Origin: Nitrospirales bacterium
Lineage (GTDB): Bacteria > Nitrospirota > Nitrospiria > Nitrospirales > UBA8639
Reading direction: 5' to 3'
Length of the DNA: 64,000 nucleotides
Assembly (NCBI GenBank): GCA_022828225.1
Contig: JAJEJG010000020.1
Span: forward strand, 1-64,000
Shown piece after piece: positions 21,048 to 32,082 of this stretch. Numbering within the stretch: position 1 is the first letter of the stretch; each line of letters opens with the position of its first letter. The position numbers and the translations under genes were made by a program. The notes beneath the pieces were generated by a model that was not told the DNA's origin, did not search any database, and saw only the letters and a program-made list of their open reading frames with translations.

Positions 21048-22118
21048 CTAACCGATGCTTTGAAGAATACGATCGCTCATCTCCTTGGTACCCACGAGGG
21101 TGGTTCCCGGAGCCGCGATGTCTCCGGTTCGGCACCCCTGGCCCAACACGGCCTGAATGGCGTTCTCGATGAGGTCCGCTTCCTCGCCCATGCCGAACGA
21201 ATACCGGAGCATCATCGCACCGGAGGCGATCATGCCGATGGGGTTGGCCGCATCCTTGCCCGCAATATCCGGGGCGCTCCCGTGAATGGGTTCATACATG
21301 CCGACGGACGCGCCGACGCTGGCCGACGGCAACATCCCGATCGACCCGGTCAACATGGCGGCTTCGTCACTCAAGATGTCACCGAACAGGTTCGTGGTCA
21401 GGATCACGTCAAACTGCCCGGGATTCCGGATCAACTGCATCGCGCAATTGTCCACGTACATGTGTCGCAGTTCCACGTCCTGATAGTCCTTGTGGACCTC
21501 GATGACGACCTTCCGCCACAACTCCGAGGATTCCAGCACGTTTGCCTTGTCCACGGAAGTGACGAGTCCCCGGCGTTTGCGTGCCACGTCGAAGGCGATT
21601 TTGGCAATCCGCGTAATCTCTTCCGTCGTGTACACTTCGGTATTGAATCCGCGATGTCCGGTCGGCGTCGCCTCCACGCCCTTGGGTTTCCCGAAATAAA
21701 TGCCGCCCGTCAGTTCACGCACCACCAGCACGTCAATGCCCTCGATGACCTCGCGCTTGAGGGTCGAGGCATCGGCCAATTCAGAATACAGTTTGGCCGG
21801 CCGGAGATTCGCAAACAGCCCGAGTTGTTCCCGCAGTCCCAGCAACGCCCGTTCCGGCCGCCGCTCATAGTCGAGGCCTTCCCATTTCGGTCCGCCCACC
21901 GCCCCCAACAGGACCGCGTCACTCGTTTTGGCCAACTGAAGCGTGTCGTCCGGGAGCGGCCATCCCGTGTCGTCAATGGCCTGACCGCCGACCGGAGCGT
22001 GTACAAACTCAAACGCATGACCACCGCGTTTCCCGACCGCTTCCAACACCGCCACCGCCGCCGGCACGATCTCCGGACCGATGCCGTCCCCTGCCAATAC
22101 TGCGATCTTCTTGTTCAT
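21048..22118 (-). CDS. leuB: 3-isopropylmalate dehydrogenase
   Basis: 356 residues. It oxidatively decarboxylates 3-isopropylmalate, the third step of leucine synthesis. The start [13 protein letters not shown], the substrate loop [37 protein letters not shown] and the metal-binding [14 protein letters not shown] are all intact. I chose ATG 22116-22118; twelve codons upstream in frame are translated repeat. It is separated from leuA by the dual-OB/DUF488 cassette. leuC and leuD are not in the window. Confidence 0.96.
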
Positions 22119-22126
22119 ATTATCTT

Positions 22127-22164
22127 CACCCTCACCCTGGCCCTCTCCAGTCAAGGAAGAGGGG
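22127..22164. repeat. Intergenic CCCTCACC/CCCTCTCC palindrome upstream of leuB
   Basis: A copy of the same short family as 19768-19805, with a CCCTCTCC arm and an AGAGGGG-like arm. The 200 bp between it and the DUF488 gene (22165-22369) contain nothing I recognise. Confidence 0.6.
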
Positions 22165-24185: not shown

Positions 24186-25733
24186 TCAACAAAGCCTGAT
24201 TTTATCGCCTTGGTTGGCGCGGCGCTCCAACTGCGACGCCAGTTTATTCAGGGCATTCAGATAGGCTTGGGCCGAAGCCACGATGATATCGGTATTCGCC
24301 CCGTTCCCGGTGACGATTTCGCCGTCCTGTTCGACCCGCACCGACACTTCGCCTTGCGCGTCCGTTCCACCGGTAATGGCTTTGACCACGTAGGCCAATA
24401 ATTTGCTCTTGGTTTGGGTGATCCCGGCAATGGTTCGATACACCGCGTCGACCGGACCATCGCCGGTGCCCGTTTCCTTCATCACTTGGCCATCCACCGC
24501 CAACTCCACGGTCGCCGTCGGCAACTGATTCGTCCCGCTTTGCGTATTCAGGGACTTTAACGAATACCGCTCAGGCACCTTGGTGACGGCTTCGGACACG
24601 ATCGATTCCAGATCTTCCTCGAACAATTCCTTTTTCTGGTCCGCGAGCCGTTTGAATCGCTCGAACGCCGCGTTCACTTCTTCGTCCGAAAGCGTATAGC
24701 CCAACTTCGCCAATTCCGCCCGAAAGGCGTGCCGACCGGACAGCTTCCCCATCACCAGCCGGCTTTGAGTCAGCCCGATGGAATCCGGCTGCATGATTTC
24801 ATACGTGTTCTTATCCTTGAGCAACCCGTCCTGGTGAATCCCGGATGTATGCGCAAACGCGTTCGCCCCGACGATGGCTTTATTGGGTTGGACGACCATT
24901 CCCGTGATCTTGCTGACCAGCCGGCTGGTCTTGGAAATTTCTTCCGTGCGAATTTGCGTCCCGGCGTCATAAAAATCCTTGCGGGTCCGCAGCCCCATCA
25001 CGATCTCTTCCATTGACGCATTGCCGGCCCGTTCGCCGATTCCGTTGATGGTACATTCCACTTGCCCGGCCCCGGCGTGGATGGCCGCCATGGAATTGGC
25101 CACGGCCAACCCCAGATCATTGTGGCAATGGACGGAGATCACCGCCCGATCGCAGTCACGCACCCGCGTCCTGAGCGTTCGGATAATATCTTCAAATTCC
25201 TTGGGGGTCGTGTACCCCACGGTATCGGGAATATTCACCGTACCCGCACCCGCGTCCACGACCGCCTCCACGACTTCGCACAGGTAGGAGACGTCCGACC
25301 GCGTCGCGTCCATGGGAGAAAACTCAACGTCATCGACGTAGCTGCGCGCGTGCCGGACCATCTCGACCGCGCGCTGAAGCGCTTCCTCTCGCGTCATGCG
25401 GAATTGGTGTTTCAGGTGAATGTCCGACGTGGACAGGAAGGTATGAATGCGCGGTTTGGGCGCCCCTTTCAATGCCTTCCACGCCGAATCAATGTCCGCA
25501 GGCTTGGCTCGCGCCAGGCTACAGACAGTCGGGCCTTCCACCTCCTGCCCGATACGCTGCACCGCCTCGAAATCGCCGGGGGAACTGAAGGCGAACCCGG
25601 CTTCAATAATATCGACGTTCAAGCGAGCCAGTTGTTTGGCGACCAGCACTTTTTCTTCCACGTTCATGCTGGCCCCCGGAGACTGTTCGCCGTCGCGCAA
25701 AGTGGTGTCGAAAATTCTGATGTGTCGCTTCAT
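24186..25733 (-). CDS. leuA: 2-isopropylmalate synthase
   Basis: 515 residues. It condenses 2-ketoisovalerate with acetyl-CoA, the committed step of leucine synthesis. The catalytic barrel begins FDTTLRDGEQSPGASM, with metal-binding HCHNDLG and a GERAGN motif. The C-terminal 120 residues are the LeuA dimer/allosteric domain that binds leucine, so feedback control is expected. The ATG has AGGAG nine bases upstream. Expression is probably also controlled by an attenuator in the 280-bp leader after pssA (25861-26011). Confidence 0.96.
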   Translation of the reverse strand: MKRHIRIFDTTLRDGEQSPGASMNVEEKVLVAKQLARLNVDIIEAGFAFSSPGDFEAVQRIGQEVEGPTVCSLARAKPADIDSAWKALKGAPKPRIHTFLSTSDIHLKHQFRMTREEALQRAVEMVRHARSYVDDVEFSPMDATRSDVSYLCEVVEAVVDAGAGTVNIPDTVGYTTPKEFEDIIRTLRTRVRDCDRAVISVHCHNDLGLAVANSMAAIHAGAGQVECTINGIGERAGNASMEEIVMGLRTRKDFYDAGTQIRTEEISKTSRLVSKITGMVVQPNKAIVGANAFAHTSGIHQDGLLKDKNTYEIMQPDSIGLTQSRLVMGKLSGRHAFRAELAKLGYTLSDEEVNAAFERFKRLADQKKELFEEDLESIVSEAVTKVPERYSLKSLNTQSGTNQLPTATVELAVDGQVMKETGTGDGPVDAVYRTIAGITQTKSKLLAYVVKAITGGTDAQGEVSVRVEQDGEIVTGNGANTDIIVASAQAYLNALNKLASQLERRANQGDKIRLC

Positions 25734-25860: not shown

Positions 25861-25898
25861 AATAAAAAAGCCTTCACCCCGAAGAGGTGAAGGCTTTC
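25861..25898 (-). terminator. Intrinsic terminator (attenuator) upstream of leuA
   Basis: On the minus strand AAAGCCTTCACC pairs with GGTGAAGGCTTT around a short TCTTCGG loop and is followed by a TTTTTTATT tract. It lies 130 bp before leuA and 18 bp after the leader-peptide stop. The loop and 3-prime arm contain TTCGGGGT (complement 25876-25883), which can pair instead with the ACCCCGAA (complement 25906-25913) directly after the leader peptide. Confidence 0.85.
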
Positions 25899-25905
25899 GA
25901 CCTGT

Positions 25906-25913
25906 TTCGGGGT
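25906..25913 (-). promoter_or_regulatory. Antiterminator arm of the leuA attenuator
   Basis: ACCCCGAA on the minus strand, two bases after the double stop codon of the leader peptide. It is perfectly complementary over 8 nt to 25876-25883 inside the terminator. A ribosome finishing the leader peptide would cover this arm and allow termination; one stalled at leucine codons would leave it free to block the terminator. Confidence 0.65.
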
Positions 25914-25915
25914 CA

Positions 25916-26011
25916 TCAGGGGGTTACTGCTATTTTGAGCAGACTTGCCAGCGTCAGTGTCGCATCACCTAAAAGAAGGGGGGCTCTGCCTTTTCCTTGC
26001 CATTGATCCAT
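25916..26011 (-). CDS. Putative leucine leader peptide (leuL-like)
   Basis: A 31-codon open frame starting 4 bp after the pssA stop, with AAAGGA eight bases before its ATG. It encodes seven leucines among residues 12-25, including Leu12-Leu13-Leu14 and Leu24-Leu25, followed by Ile27 and Val29, and ends in tandem TGA codons. Position, ribosome-binding site, codon content and the downstream terminator match classical amino-acid attenuators. The sequence has no similarity to known leader peptides that I can state; the assignment rests on architecture. Confidence 0.75.
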   Translation of the reverse strand: MDQWQGKGRAPLLLGDATLTLASLLKIAVTP

Positions 26012-26015
26012 GCGA

Positions 26016-26807
26016 TCAGTCCTTTGACTCCGACGACACGGGCGCCCGAACCGGCGTCTCCCGCGTCGTTGGTGCGGTGAGAACGGTCCAGCCCTTTTCC
26101 AACAAACCGGAACTCACGTATACCAAACAAATCACAAACAACATCAATTCAGGATAGGCCATGACGGACACCAGAATCAAGACGGCCCAGACCAAATACA
26201 TGAAATGATTGTGGCCTGCAAACTTCAACTGTTTCACGCTACGGTATTTCACCGTGCTCACCATGAGGAACCCCATCAGCAGGCTCAAGGCGATAACCAC
26301 CGAGGGAAGCACGCTTGCAGGCAGATGGCTGATGTGCACGTCGAAAATATAAAACGTCACGATAAACCCGGCGGCCGCCGGAATGGGCAACCCCGTAAAA
26401 AACCGACTTTCCGCACTGCTTGCCATGACGTTGAACCGCGCCAGGCGTAATGCGCCGCAGGCCACGTACGCAAACATGATCGCCGCACCCAACATGCCCG
26501 GGGACTTCAGCGCCCATGCATAAATCAAAAACCCGGGGGCGAGCCCGAATGAAATCAGATCCGACAGGGAATCGTATTCCACGCCAAACTCGCTCGTACT
26601 GTTGGTCAAACGGGCGGACGTGCCGTCCAGGACGTCGAAGACCATCGCAATCAGGATCGCAATCGCCGCCGCTTCCAAGCGACCATGGTACACAAACACC
26701 ATCGCGGCCAAACCGCTGAACAGATTGCCGGTGGTGAGGATGTTTGGGATCAGGTGGACGCCCCGCCGGCGAGCCCCTTCCTTATTTTTGAATATCCGTC
26801 CCTTCAC
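26016..26807 (-). CDS. pssA: CDP-diacylglycerol--serine O-phosphatidyltransferase
   Basis: 263 residues, an integral membrane enzyme making phosphatidylserine. The CDP-alcohol phosphotransferase signature DVLDGTSARLTNSTSEFGVEYD continues to LSD, giving D-x2-DG-x2-AR-x8-G-x3-D-x3-D. Several hydrophobic helices follow. The start is GTG at 26805-26807, overlapping the psd stop by 4 bp. It is followed at 4 bp by the leuL-like leader, so leuA is probably read from the same transcript when the attenuator is open. Confidence 0.94.
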   Translation of the reverse strand: MKGRIFKNKEGARRRGVHLIPNILTTGNLFSGLAAMVFVYHGRLEAAAIAILIAMVFDVLDGTSARLTNSTSEFGVEYDSLSDLISFGLAPGFLIYAWALKSPGMLGAAIMFAYVACGALRLARFNVMASSAESRFFTGLPIPAAAGFIVTFYIFDVHISHLPASVLPSVVIALSLLMGFLMVSTVKYRSVKQLKFAGHNHFMYLVWAVLILVSVMAYPELMLFVICLVYVSSGLLEKGWTVLTAPTTRETPVRAPVSSESKD

Positions 26808-32057: not shown

Positions 32058-32082
32058 GAGGAGTTGTAGACCTAAATGAGTC

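Follow-up and report, generated by a model that had tools for sequence, protein, structure and literature searches.

Introduction

T-boxes and leader-peptide attenuators both ask whether Leu-tRNA is charged, by unrelated means. Leader-peptide attenuators of leu and ilv genes are represented by the enterobacterial leuL (RF00512), the ilv-leu leader of S. aureus (PMC5794164) and leuS of Streptomyces (PMC1262725), the last source also describing leucine leader frames in Actinobacteria, and leucine T-boxes stand before leuA in Geobacter and Pelobacter (PMC2494555). Exchange between the two kinds of sensor has been reported between distant groups and at hisS/hisZ in Firmicutes (Naville and Gautheret 2010, PMC2965389). 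A literature search, with most subscription journals outside its scope, returned no paper joining T-box, leuA and Nitrospira, and no report of leader-peptide control in Nitrospirota.

Here, we describe the gap between pssA and leuA in a window of 64,000 nt from a Nitrospirales bacterium (genome G000). The gap very probably holds a ribosome-mediated transcription attenuator for leuA, which appears to replace an ancestral leucine T-box and to keep its terminator. The element is like the leu/ilv attenuators in its short frame rich in cognate codons, its mutually exclusive antiterminator and terminator, and its position before a biosynthetic gene; unlike them, it shows no sequence kinship to known members, lies inside an operon where it is coupled to pssA, apparently lacks a conserved 1:2 hairpin and has an antiterminator strand that starts at the stop codon. 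No Rfam family matched the window at its gathering score, and Leu_leader (RF00512) gave no match even at E 10, a threshold at which only chance-level matches appeared (the best, Phe_leader, at 23.1 bits against a cut-off of 55).

The actinobacterial LEU element (PMC1262725) likewise places a frame with consecutive Leu codons upstream of leuA. In that element, the Shine-Dalgarno sequence of leuA is paired with the Leu codons, a pseudoknot forms and there is no terminator, whereas at the present locus a strong terminator, well away from the leuA start, stands between that start and Leu codons some 180-240 nt away. The leucine T-box (RF00230) shares with our element the gene, the place past pssA within the phylum, a similar terminator and, as predicted for the window, the outcome of read-through when Leu-tRNA is uncharged. 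However, the T-box senses tRNA directly and without ribosomes, and the window's family has none. At hisS/hisZ (PMC2965389), one sensing system likewise gives way to the other at related genes; that exchange takes place between paralogues, emergence from random sequence or transfer is proposed for it, and the sections consulted do not mention that an earlier terminator was kept. The kind of attenuator is already known, and the part of interest is the apparent in-place exchange of sensors around a retained terminator.

A leucine-rich frame between pssA and leuA

All parts of the attenuator lie on the minus strand (Table 1). The final codons of pssA, whose stop codon is at 26018-26016, contain the ribosome-binding site of the leader frame, which opens after a gap of 4 nt and has sense codons down to 25919. 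Leu occupies positions 12, 13, 14, 19, 21, 24 and 25, that is, seven of 14 positions with a run of three and a run of two, and is followed by Ile27 and Val29; the first TGA of the tandem stop is at 25918-25916. AAGGA is kept at identical spacing in most relatives, and TGATG or TAATG at the leader stop is kept in the genus. The leuA ATG at 25733 lies 130 nt past the U-tract. An earlier, sequence-only reading had placed a leucine attenuator at 25861-26011, with a 31-codon frame and ribosome-binding site 4 bp past pssA, a tandem TGA, this same array of Leu, Ile and Val codons, and, 130 nt before leuA, a strong U-tract terminator with a complement of ACCCCGAA in its loop and 3′ arm; the coordinates and each of these parts were correct.

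Table 1. Positions of the proposed leuA attenuator and adjoining genes in the window
Feature	Position	Strand	Basis and remarks
pssA, CDP-alcohol phosphatidyltransferase family	26016..26807	-	Pfam PF01066, E 5.5e-21; directly upstream of leader
Ribosome-binding site AAAGGA	26020..26025	-	sequence; overlaps pssA end, 8 nt upstream of ATG
Leader frame MDQWQGKGRAPLLLGDATLTLASLLKIAVTP, 31 codons + TGA, 7 Leu codons	25916..26011	-	sequence, conservation in 13 genomes
Second TGA of tandem stop	25913..25915	-	sequence
ACCCCGAA, outer antiterminator strand	25906..25913	-	perfect complement of 25883-25876; folds
AGGT, inner antiterminator strand	25900..25903	-	growing-transcript fold; pairs with ACCT 25888-25885
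Intrinsic terminator stem-loop GAAAGCCTTCACCTCTTCGGGGTGAAGGCTTTT	25866..25898	-	folding; matches Nitrospira T-box terminator model
TTCGGGGT, terminator loop and 3′ arm, common to terminator and antiterminator	25876..25883	-	folding
U-tract of terminator, six T	25864..25869	-	sequence
leuA, 2-isopropylmalate synthase, predicted controlled gene	24186..25733	-	Pfam PF00682, PF08502
leuB-like gene	21048..22154	-	Pfam PF00180; three small genes downstream, same strand

Pfam searches around the locus confirmed leuA, pssA, psd, ilvC, ilvB, ilvN and leuB, and pssA and leuA are syntenic in all relatives examined, save one T-box locus (L122) with no pssA match. The sequence-only reading took leuA alone to be tuned; co-transcription would extend control to the genes downstream of leuA, and the leuB-like gene is probably also affected by the switch. 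An M48-peptidase-like gene, recognized by eye, lies between ilvN and ilvC (29810-28527, minus strand); judging from the position of ilvB, several relatives seem to lack this gene in the operon.

The leader frame is conserved as a coding sequence

We collected pssA-leuA gaps from relatives found by PssA and LeuA. In 13 distinct sequences from as many genomes of the family (f1), with LeuA 87-100 % identical, the gene is preceded by a short frame with its ribosome-binding site (AAAGGA, ATG) and exactly 31 codons, without a single indel. The terminator follows approximately 116 nt after the ATG and approximately 23 nt after the stop, and leuA lies at a variable distance beyond it, from approximately 18 to 200 nt and more. 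Column 12 is Leu in all 13 leaders, columns 13, 14, 19, 21 and 25 in 12 and column 24 in nine. The codons in the first six of these columns are interchanged, with CTT, CTC and CTA in column 13, CTG, TTG, CTT and CTC in column 19, and TTA/CTA exchange besides, so that Leu is kept as an amino acid and not as DNA, L013 and L094 excepted.

The ratio pN/pS is 0.27 in Leu columns as against 0.70 in the other columns of the leader, and 0.62 in the reading frame as against 0.84 and 1.22 in the other two frames. Shuffles of nucleotide columns, which act on the same columns and ignore the kinship of the sequences, never reached six columns with Leu in at least 12 of 13 leaders (0/5000; mean 0.45, maximum 3), and left all 13 frames open in 18 of 5000 cases. 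Conservation of the in-frame Leu codons, the frame length and the stop position, which the sequence-only reading had proposed as a check, thus holds in 13 genomes.

Some leaders depart from this pattern. In two (L001 and L008), the second half holds an insert with CAGGGGCCTGTCCCTAC; the frame is still open, the stop falls 8 nt earlier, and five and seven Leu codons are kept, respectively. The motif recurs 15 times in the genome of L001 and eight times in that of L008. Leaders L014 and L038 have four Leu codons. L013 (G002) retains the terminator with two Leu codons, as does L094 (G007) with three in its best frame, the start lying outside the contig; both also keep the CCC-rich strand despite the few Leu codons. 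Loss of Leu codons beside a kept terminator was named by the sequence-only reading as evidence against it, and it occurs in this minority only. As L013 and L094 form one divergent pair on the LeuA tree (LeuA 81-82 % identical), their leaders are best read as decayed.

As a separate observation, a short palindromic repeat with CAGGGGnnTGTCCCTAC is present in 15 copies in G001, eight in G006 and one in G000, and has entered the leader in two separate branches (L001, L008), where the frame is still open.

Two exclusive folds and their order

The terminator precedes leuA as an intrinsic stem-loop, and the 99-nt stretch folds at z = -3.8, with none of 200 shuffles as good, mostly through the terminator's contribution. 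ACCCCGAA starts 2 nt past the first stop codon, shares the A of the second TGA, and is expected to be covered by a ribosome that has reached the stop codon; an 8 bp antiterminator of this kind was matched by 1.2 % of spacer shuffles (p = 0.012). Folds of the growing transcript from the stop codon onwards form a two-part antiterminator, with an outer helix ACCCCGAA:TTCGGGGT and an inner helix AGGT:ACCT that is longer in relatives (AGGTGGx : xTTCACCT). This structure holds at -18 to -19 kcal/mol until GGGGT and a few more bases are made, and the terminator wins (-28.1) once GAAGGC is made. The antiterminator is therefore exclusive with the terminator and formed earlier, and when the stop codon and 12 nt are masked, the terminator alone remains. 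Because the full RNA, standing free, prefers the terminator, the switch needs kinetic, co-transcriptional folding.

The same order of folding was found in L004, L006, L011, L012, L013, L038, L074 and L075, and, with different sequences, in genera g4 and g3. Genus g4 differs in both leader and antiterminator (CGATCGGG:CCCGATCG), and its frame likewise has Leu-Leu just ahead of the stop; its leaders are less alike, and some start with GTG or TTG. Across sequences, the two strands of the outer helix change together (ACCCCGA:TCGGGGT, CCCCGAAG:CTTCGGGG, TACCTCGT:ACGGGGTG and ACTCTGG:TCGGGGT). Counted sequence by sequence, several outer helices were significant against single-sequence shuffles (0.002-0.02); those of L011 and L013 were not, the L011 helix being weak (5 bp, p 0.29). 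Covariation of the two stems had been proposed as a further check, and here the alternative stems are conserved and show some compensating change. A GACC..GGTC hairpin in the window's leader is, by eye, not kept in relatives, in which we likewise saw no conserved 1:2 hairpin of the trp type.

A model for control by Leu-tRNA supply

The computations show the parts and how they are conserved, as well as two mutually exclusive folds and which of them forms first; for stalling, ribosome masking and the leucine response we draw on known attenuators. Transcripts of the ilv-psd-pssA operon would run into the leader, where a ribosome starting at 26011 would translate the Leu-rich frame. With sufficient charged Leu-tRNA, the ribosome would reach the stop codon and cover ACCCCGAA, the terminator at 25898-25866 would form, and transcription would end before leuA. 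When Leu-tRNA is short, the ribosome would stall at the Leu codons between positions 12 and 25, leaving ACCCCGAA and AGGT to pair with TTCGGGGT and ACCT as soon as these are made; the antiterminator would pre-empt the terminator, and leuA would be transcribed. Frame conservation, stem conservation and folding order all support the leucine-attenuator interpretation originally given to this gap. The model predicts leucine control of leuA in relatives of Nitrospira, and extends predicted leader-peptide control to the Nitrospirota.

A leucine T-box occupies the same site elsewhere in the phylum

The interest of the case lies in what occupies this site in the rest of the phylum, which is not visible from the window alone. 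Nitrospira itself (family f3, with N. moscoviensis as L015) has a T-box between pssA and leuA: GGGTGGTACCACG is readily seen in L015-L036, L098-L108 and L125-L127, and Infernal searches with RF00230 assigned a single T-box to each of the 11 f3 genomes in the first set. The stem I codon GAACTC, read by eye, suggests a Leu (CUC) specifier. Across the phylum, T-boxes were found in 94 of 296 Nitrospirota genomes, with families f6, f9, f14, f15 and f18 among those represented. At thirteen fetched loci among these 94, the T-box lies directly before leuA, with pssA upstream in all except L122.

The Infernal search that covered those 11 f3 genomes, with stricter filters that lose weak matches, found no T-box in 37 genomes of the window's family, nor in f2 or f4; the window gave no RF00230 match even at E 10, and its own genome gave none. 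A specifier stem with a GGTGGTACC antiterminator was found neither in the window nor in its genome nor in f1. In the LeuA tree, a single-gene tree with a midpoint root that leaves room for transfer, f1 is one clade (100/100) grouped with f3 (92/89), f2 groups with f4 (94/86), and the other T-box families fall outside both pairs, so that f1 is nested within the spread of T-boxes. Most simply, the T-box would be ancestral, with losses in f1 and in f2/f4.

Within the Nitrospirales, the site has a T-box (f3), a terminator only (some f2), a leader attenuator (f1) or nothing (f4 and the f1 genus g9). As both sensors are found at one syntenic site in one order, with terminator-only and empty states alongside, the succession of sensors can be traced stepwise. 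Two f2 loci (L110, L112) have a T-box-type terminator, GCAGCCTTCCTCCC..GGG..GAAGGCTG, alone in a gap with room for neither T-box nor leader frame. At L097/L146 (G014, genus g2), the terminator lies behind a strong stem, ATCCAATATTCTGTA..TATAGAGTGGATGGAT, with no clear leader frame or T-box, and L005 has approximately 200 bp extra right after the terminator, MITE-like with inverted ends GGGAACCTCTGATTTATTGCAC...GGGGATCAGAGGTTCC.

Origin of the proposed attenuator and competing explanations

A plain, unregulated partial terminator could lower leuA expression while the small frame is translated and senses nothing. The sensor-less terminators of L110 and L112 and the Leu-poor leaders of L013 and L094 fit such an explanation, which we nevertheless consider improbable, because it accounts neither for the stronger purifying selection on Leu columns than on the rest of the frame nor for the antiterminator strand kept beside the stop codon. 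More improbable still is a degenerate T-box that continues to read tRNA-Leu directly. The shared site, the likeness of AACAGGTGG to AANCAGGGTGG and the match to the f3 terminator model would all be expected of one; however, the tRNA-end-binding bulge GGTGGTACC and stem I with its specifier are gone, a reading frame fills the space, and the T-box searches of the window (at E 10) and of the f1 genomes were negative. In several g1 and g7 sequences, which are related and not independent, the resemblance of AACAGGTGG to AANCAGGGTGG is above shuffles (p 0.003-0.02); no such remnant rose above shuffles in g4, g3, g2 or f2. That AACAGGTGG in g1/g7 is a remnant of the T-box antiterminator strand is suggestive only.

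Whether the attenuator arose in place, as a ribosome-based sensor added to the terminator of a lost T-box, turns in part on that terminator. A model built from 24 f3 T-box terminators only was run on whole genomes, and the leuA terminator was the genome's best match in 11 of 15 (nine from f1, namely G001, G005, G010, G014, G015, G016, G019, G023 and G026, and two from f2, G040 and G049, in which neither T-box nor leader was found). It ranked second in G000 (29.1 bits) and third in G024, and was not among the matches listed for G009 and G002; in genomes without such a terminator (G018, G028, G039, G037), the best matches lay elsewhere or there were none. Unrelated terminators reach into the same range of scores (17.6-40 bits), so the argument depends on rank and position and not on the score. 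The top match in G000 (C13:15331) was set aside as a GC-rich terminator between convergent genes, unrelated in sequence. The form GCCTTCGTCCC..GGGAGGAAGGC, with the mismatch at its centre, is common to f3 (L125/L126) and genus g4 of f1; searched for as a 30-base pattern, it occurs in f1 genomes nowhere but before leuA.

These data also bear on an independent origin of T-box and leader at one site, the terminators being alike through convergence, an alternative that we regard as possible but rather unlikely. The GCCTTC..GAAGGC stems are simple, scores of 28-40 bits only slightly exceed those of unrelated terminators, the best of which reach 30.9 bits, one unrelated terminator outranks the leuA site in the window's own genome, and G009, G002 and G024 lack a leading match. 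However, convergence predicts neither the first rank at a syntenic site in most of the genomes, sensor-less f2 included, nor the same mismatch kept in the g4 form. Phylogeny and terminator match are together best read as loss of the T-box, retention of the terminator and a ribosome-based sensor in its place. We lean slightly towards a direct conversion, in which the terminator would have been kept, perhaps together with the antiterminator strand CAGGGTGG (now CAGGTGG), while the tRNA-binding part was lost and the Leu-rich frame gained.

The region before ilvB

A second attenuator before ilvB was considered and rejected: the Leu-rich frame at 32082 lacks a start codon in most relatives (ATC for ATG), and no conserved leader frame was found in the ilvB upstream regions compared (L168-L176). 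In the same regions (32150-31960, minus strand, in the window), a promoter-like TTGACTTGTGGATAAYGCAGGTTTATCAT is strongly conserved in the genus and g7, together with a conserved 5′ stretch, ACAACCCnTGGAAACnATTGGGTTTCTTGG, that has an AACCC..GGGTT hairpin. The sequence upstream of ilvB is possibly the operon promoter followed by an undescribed ilvB leader RNA.
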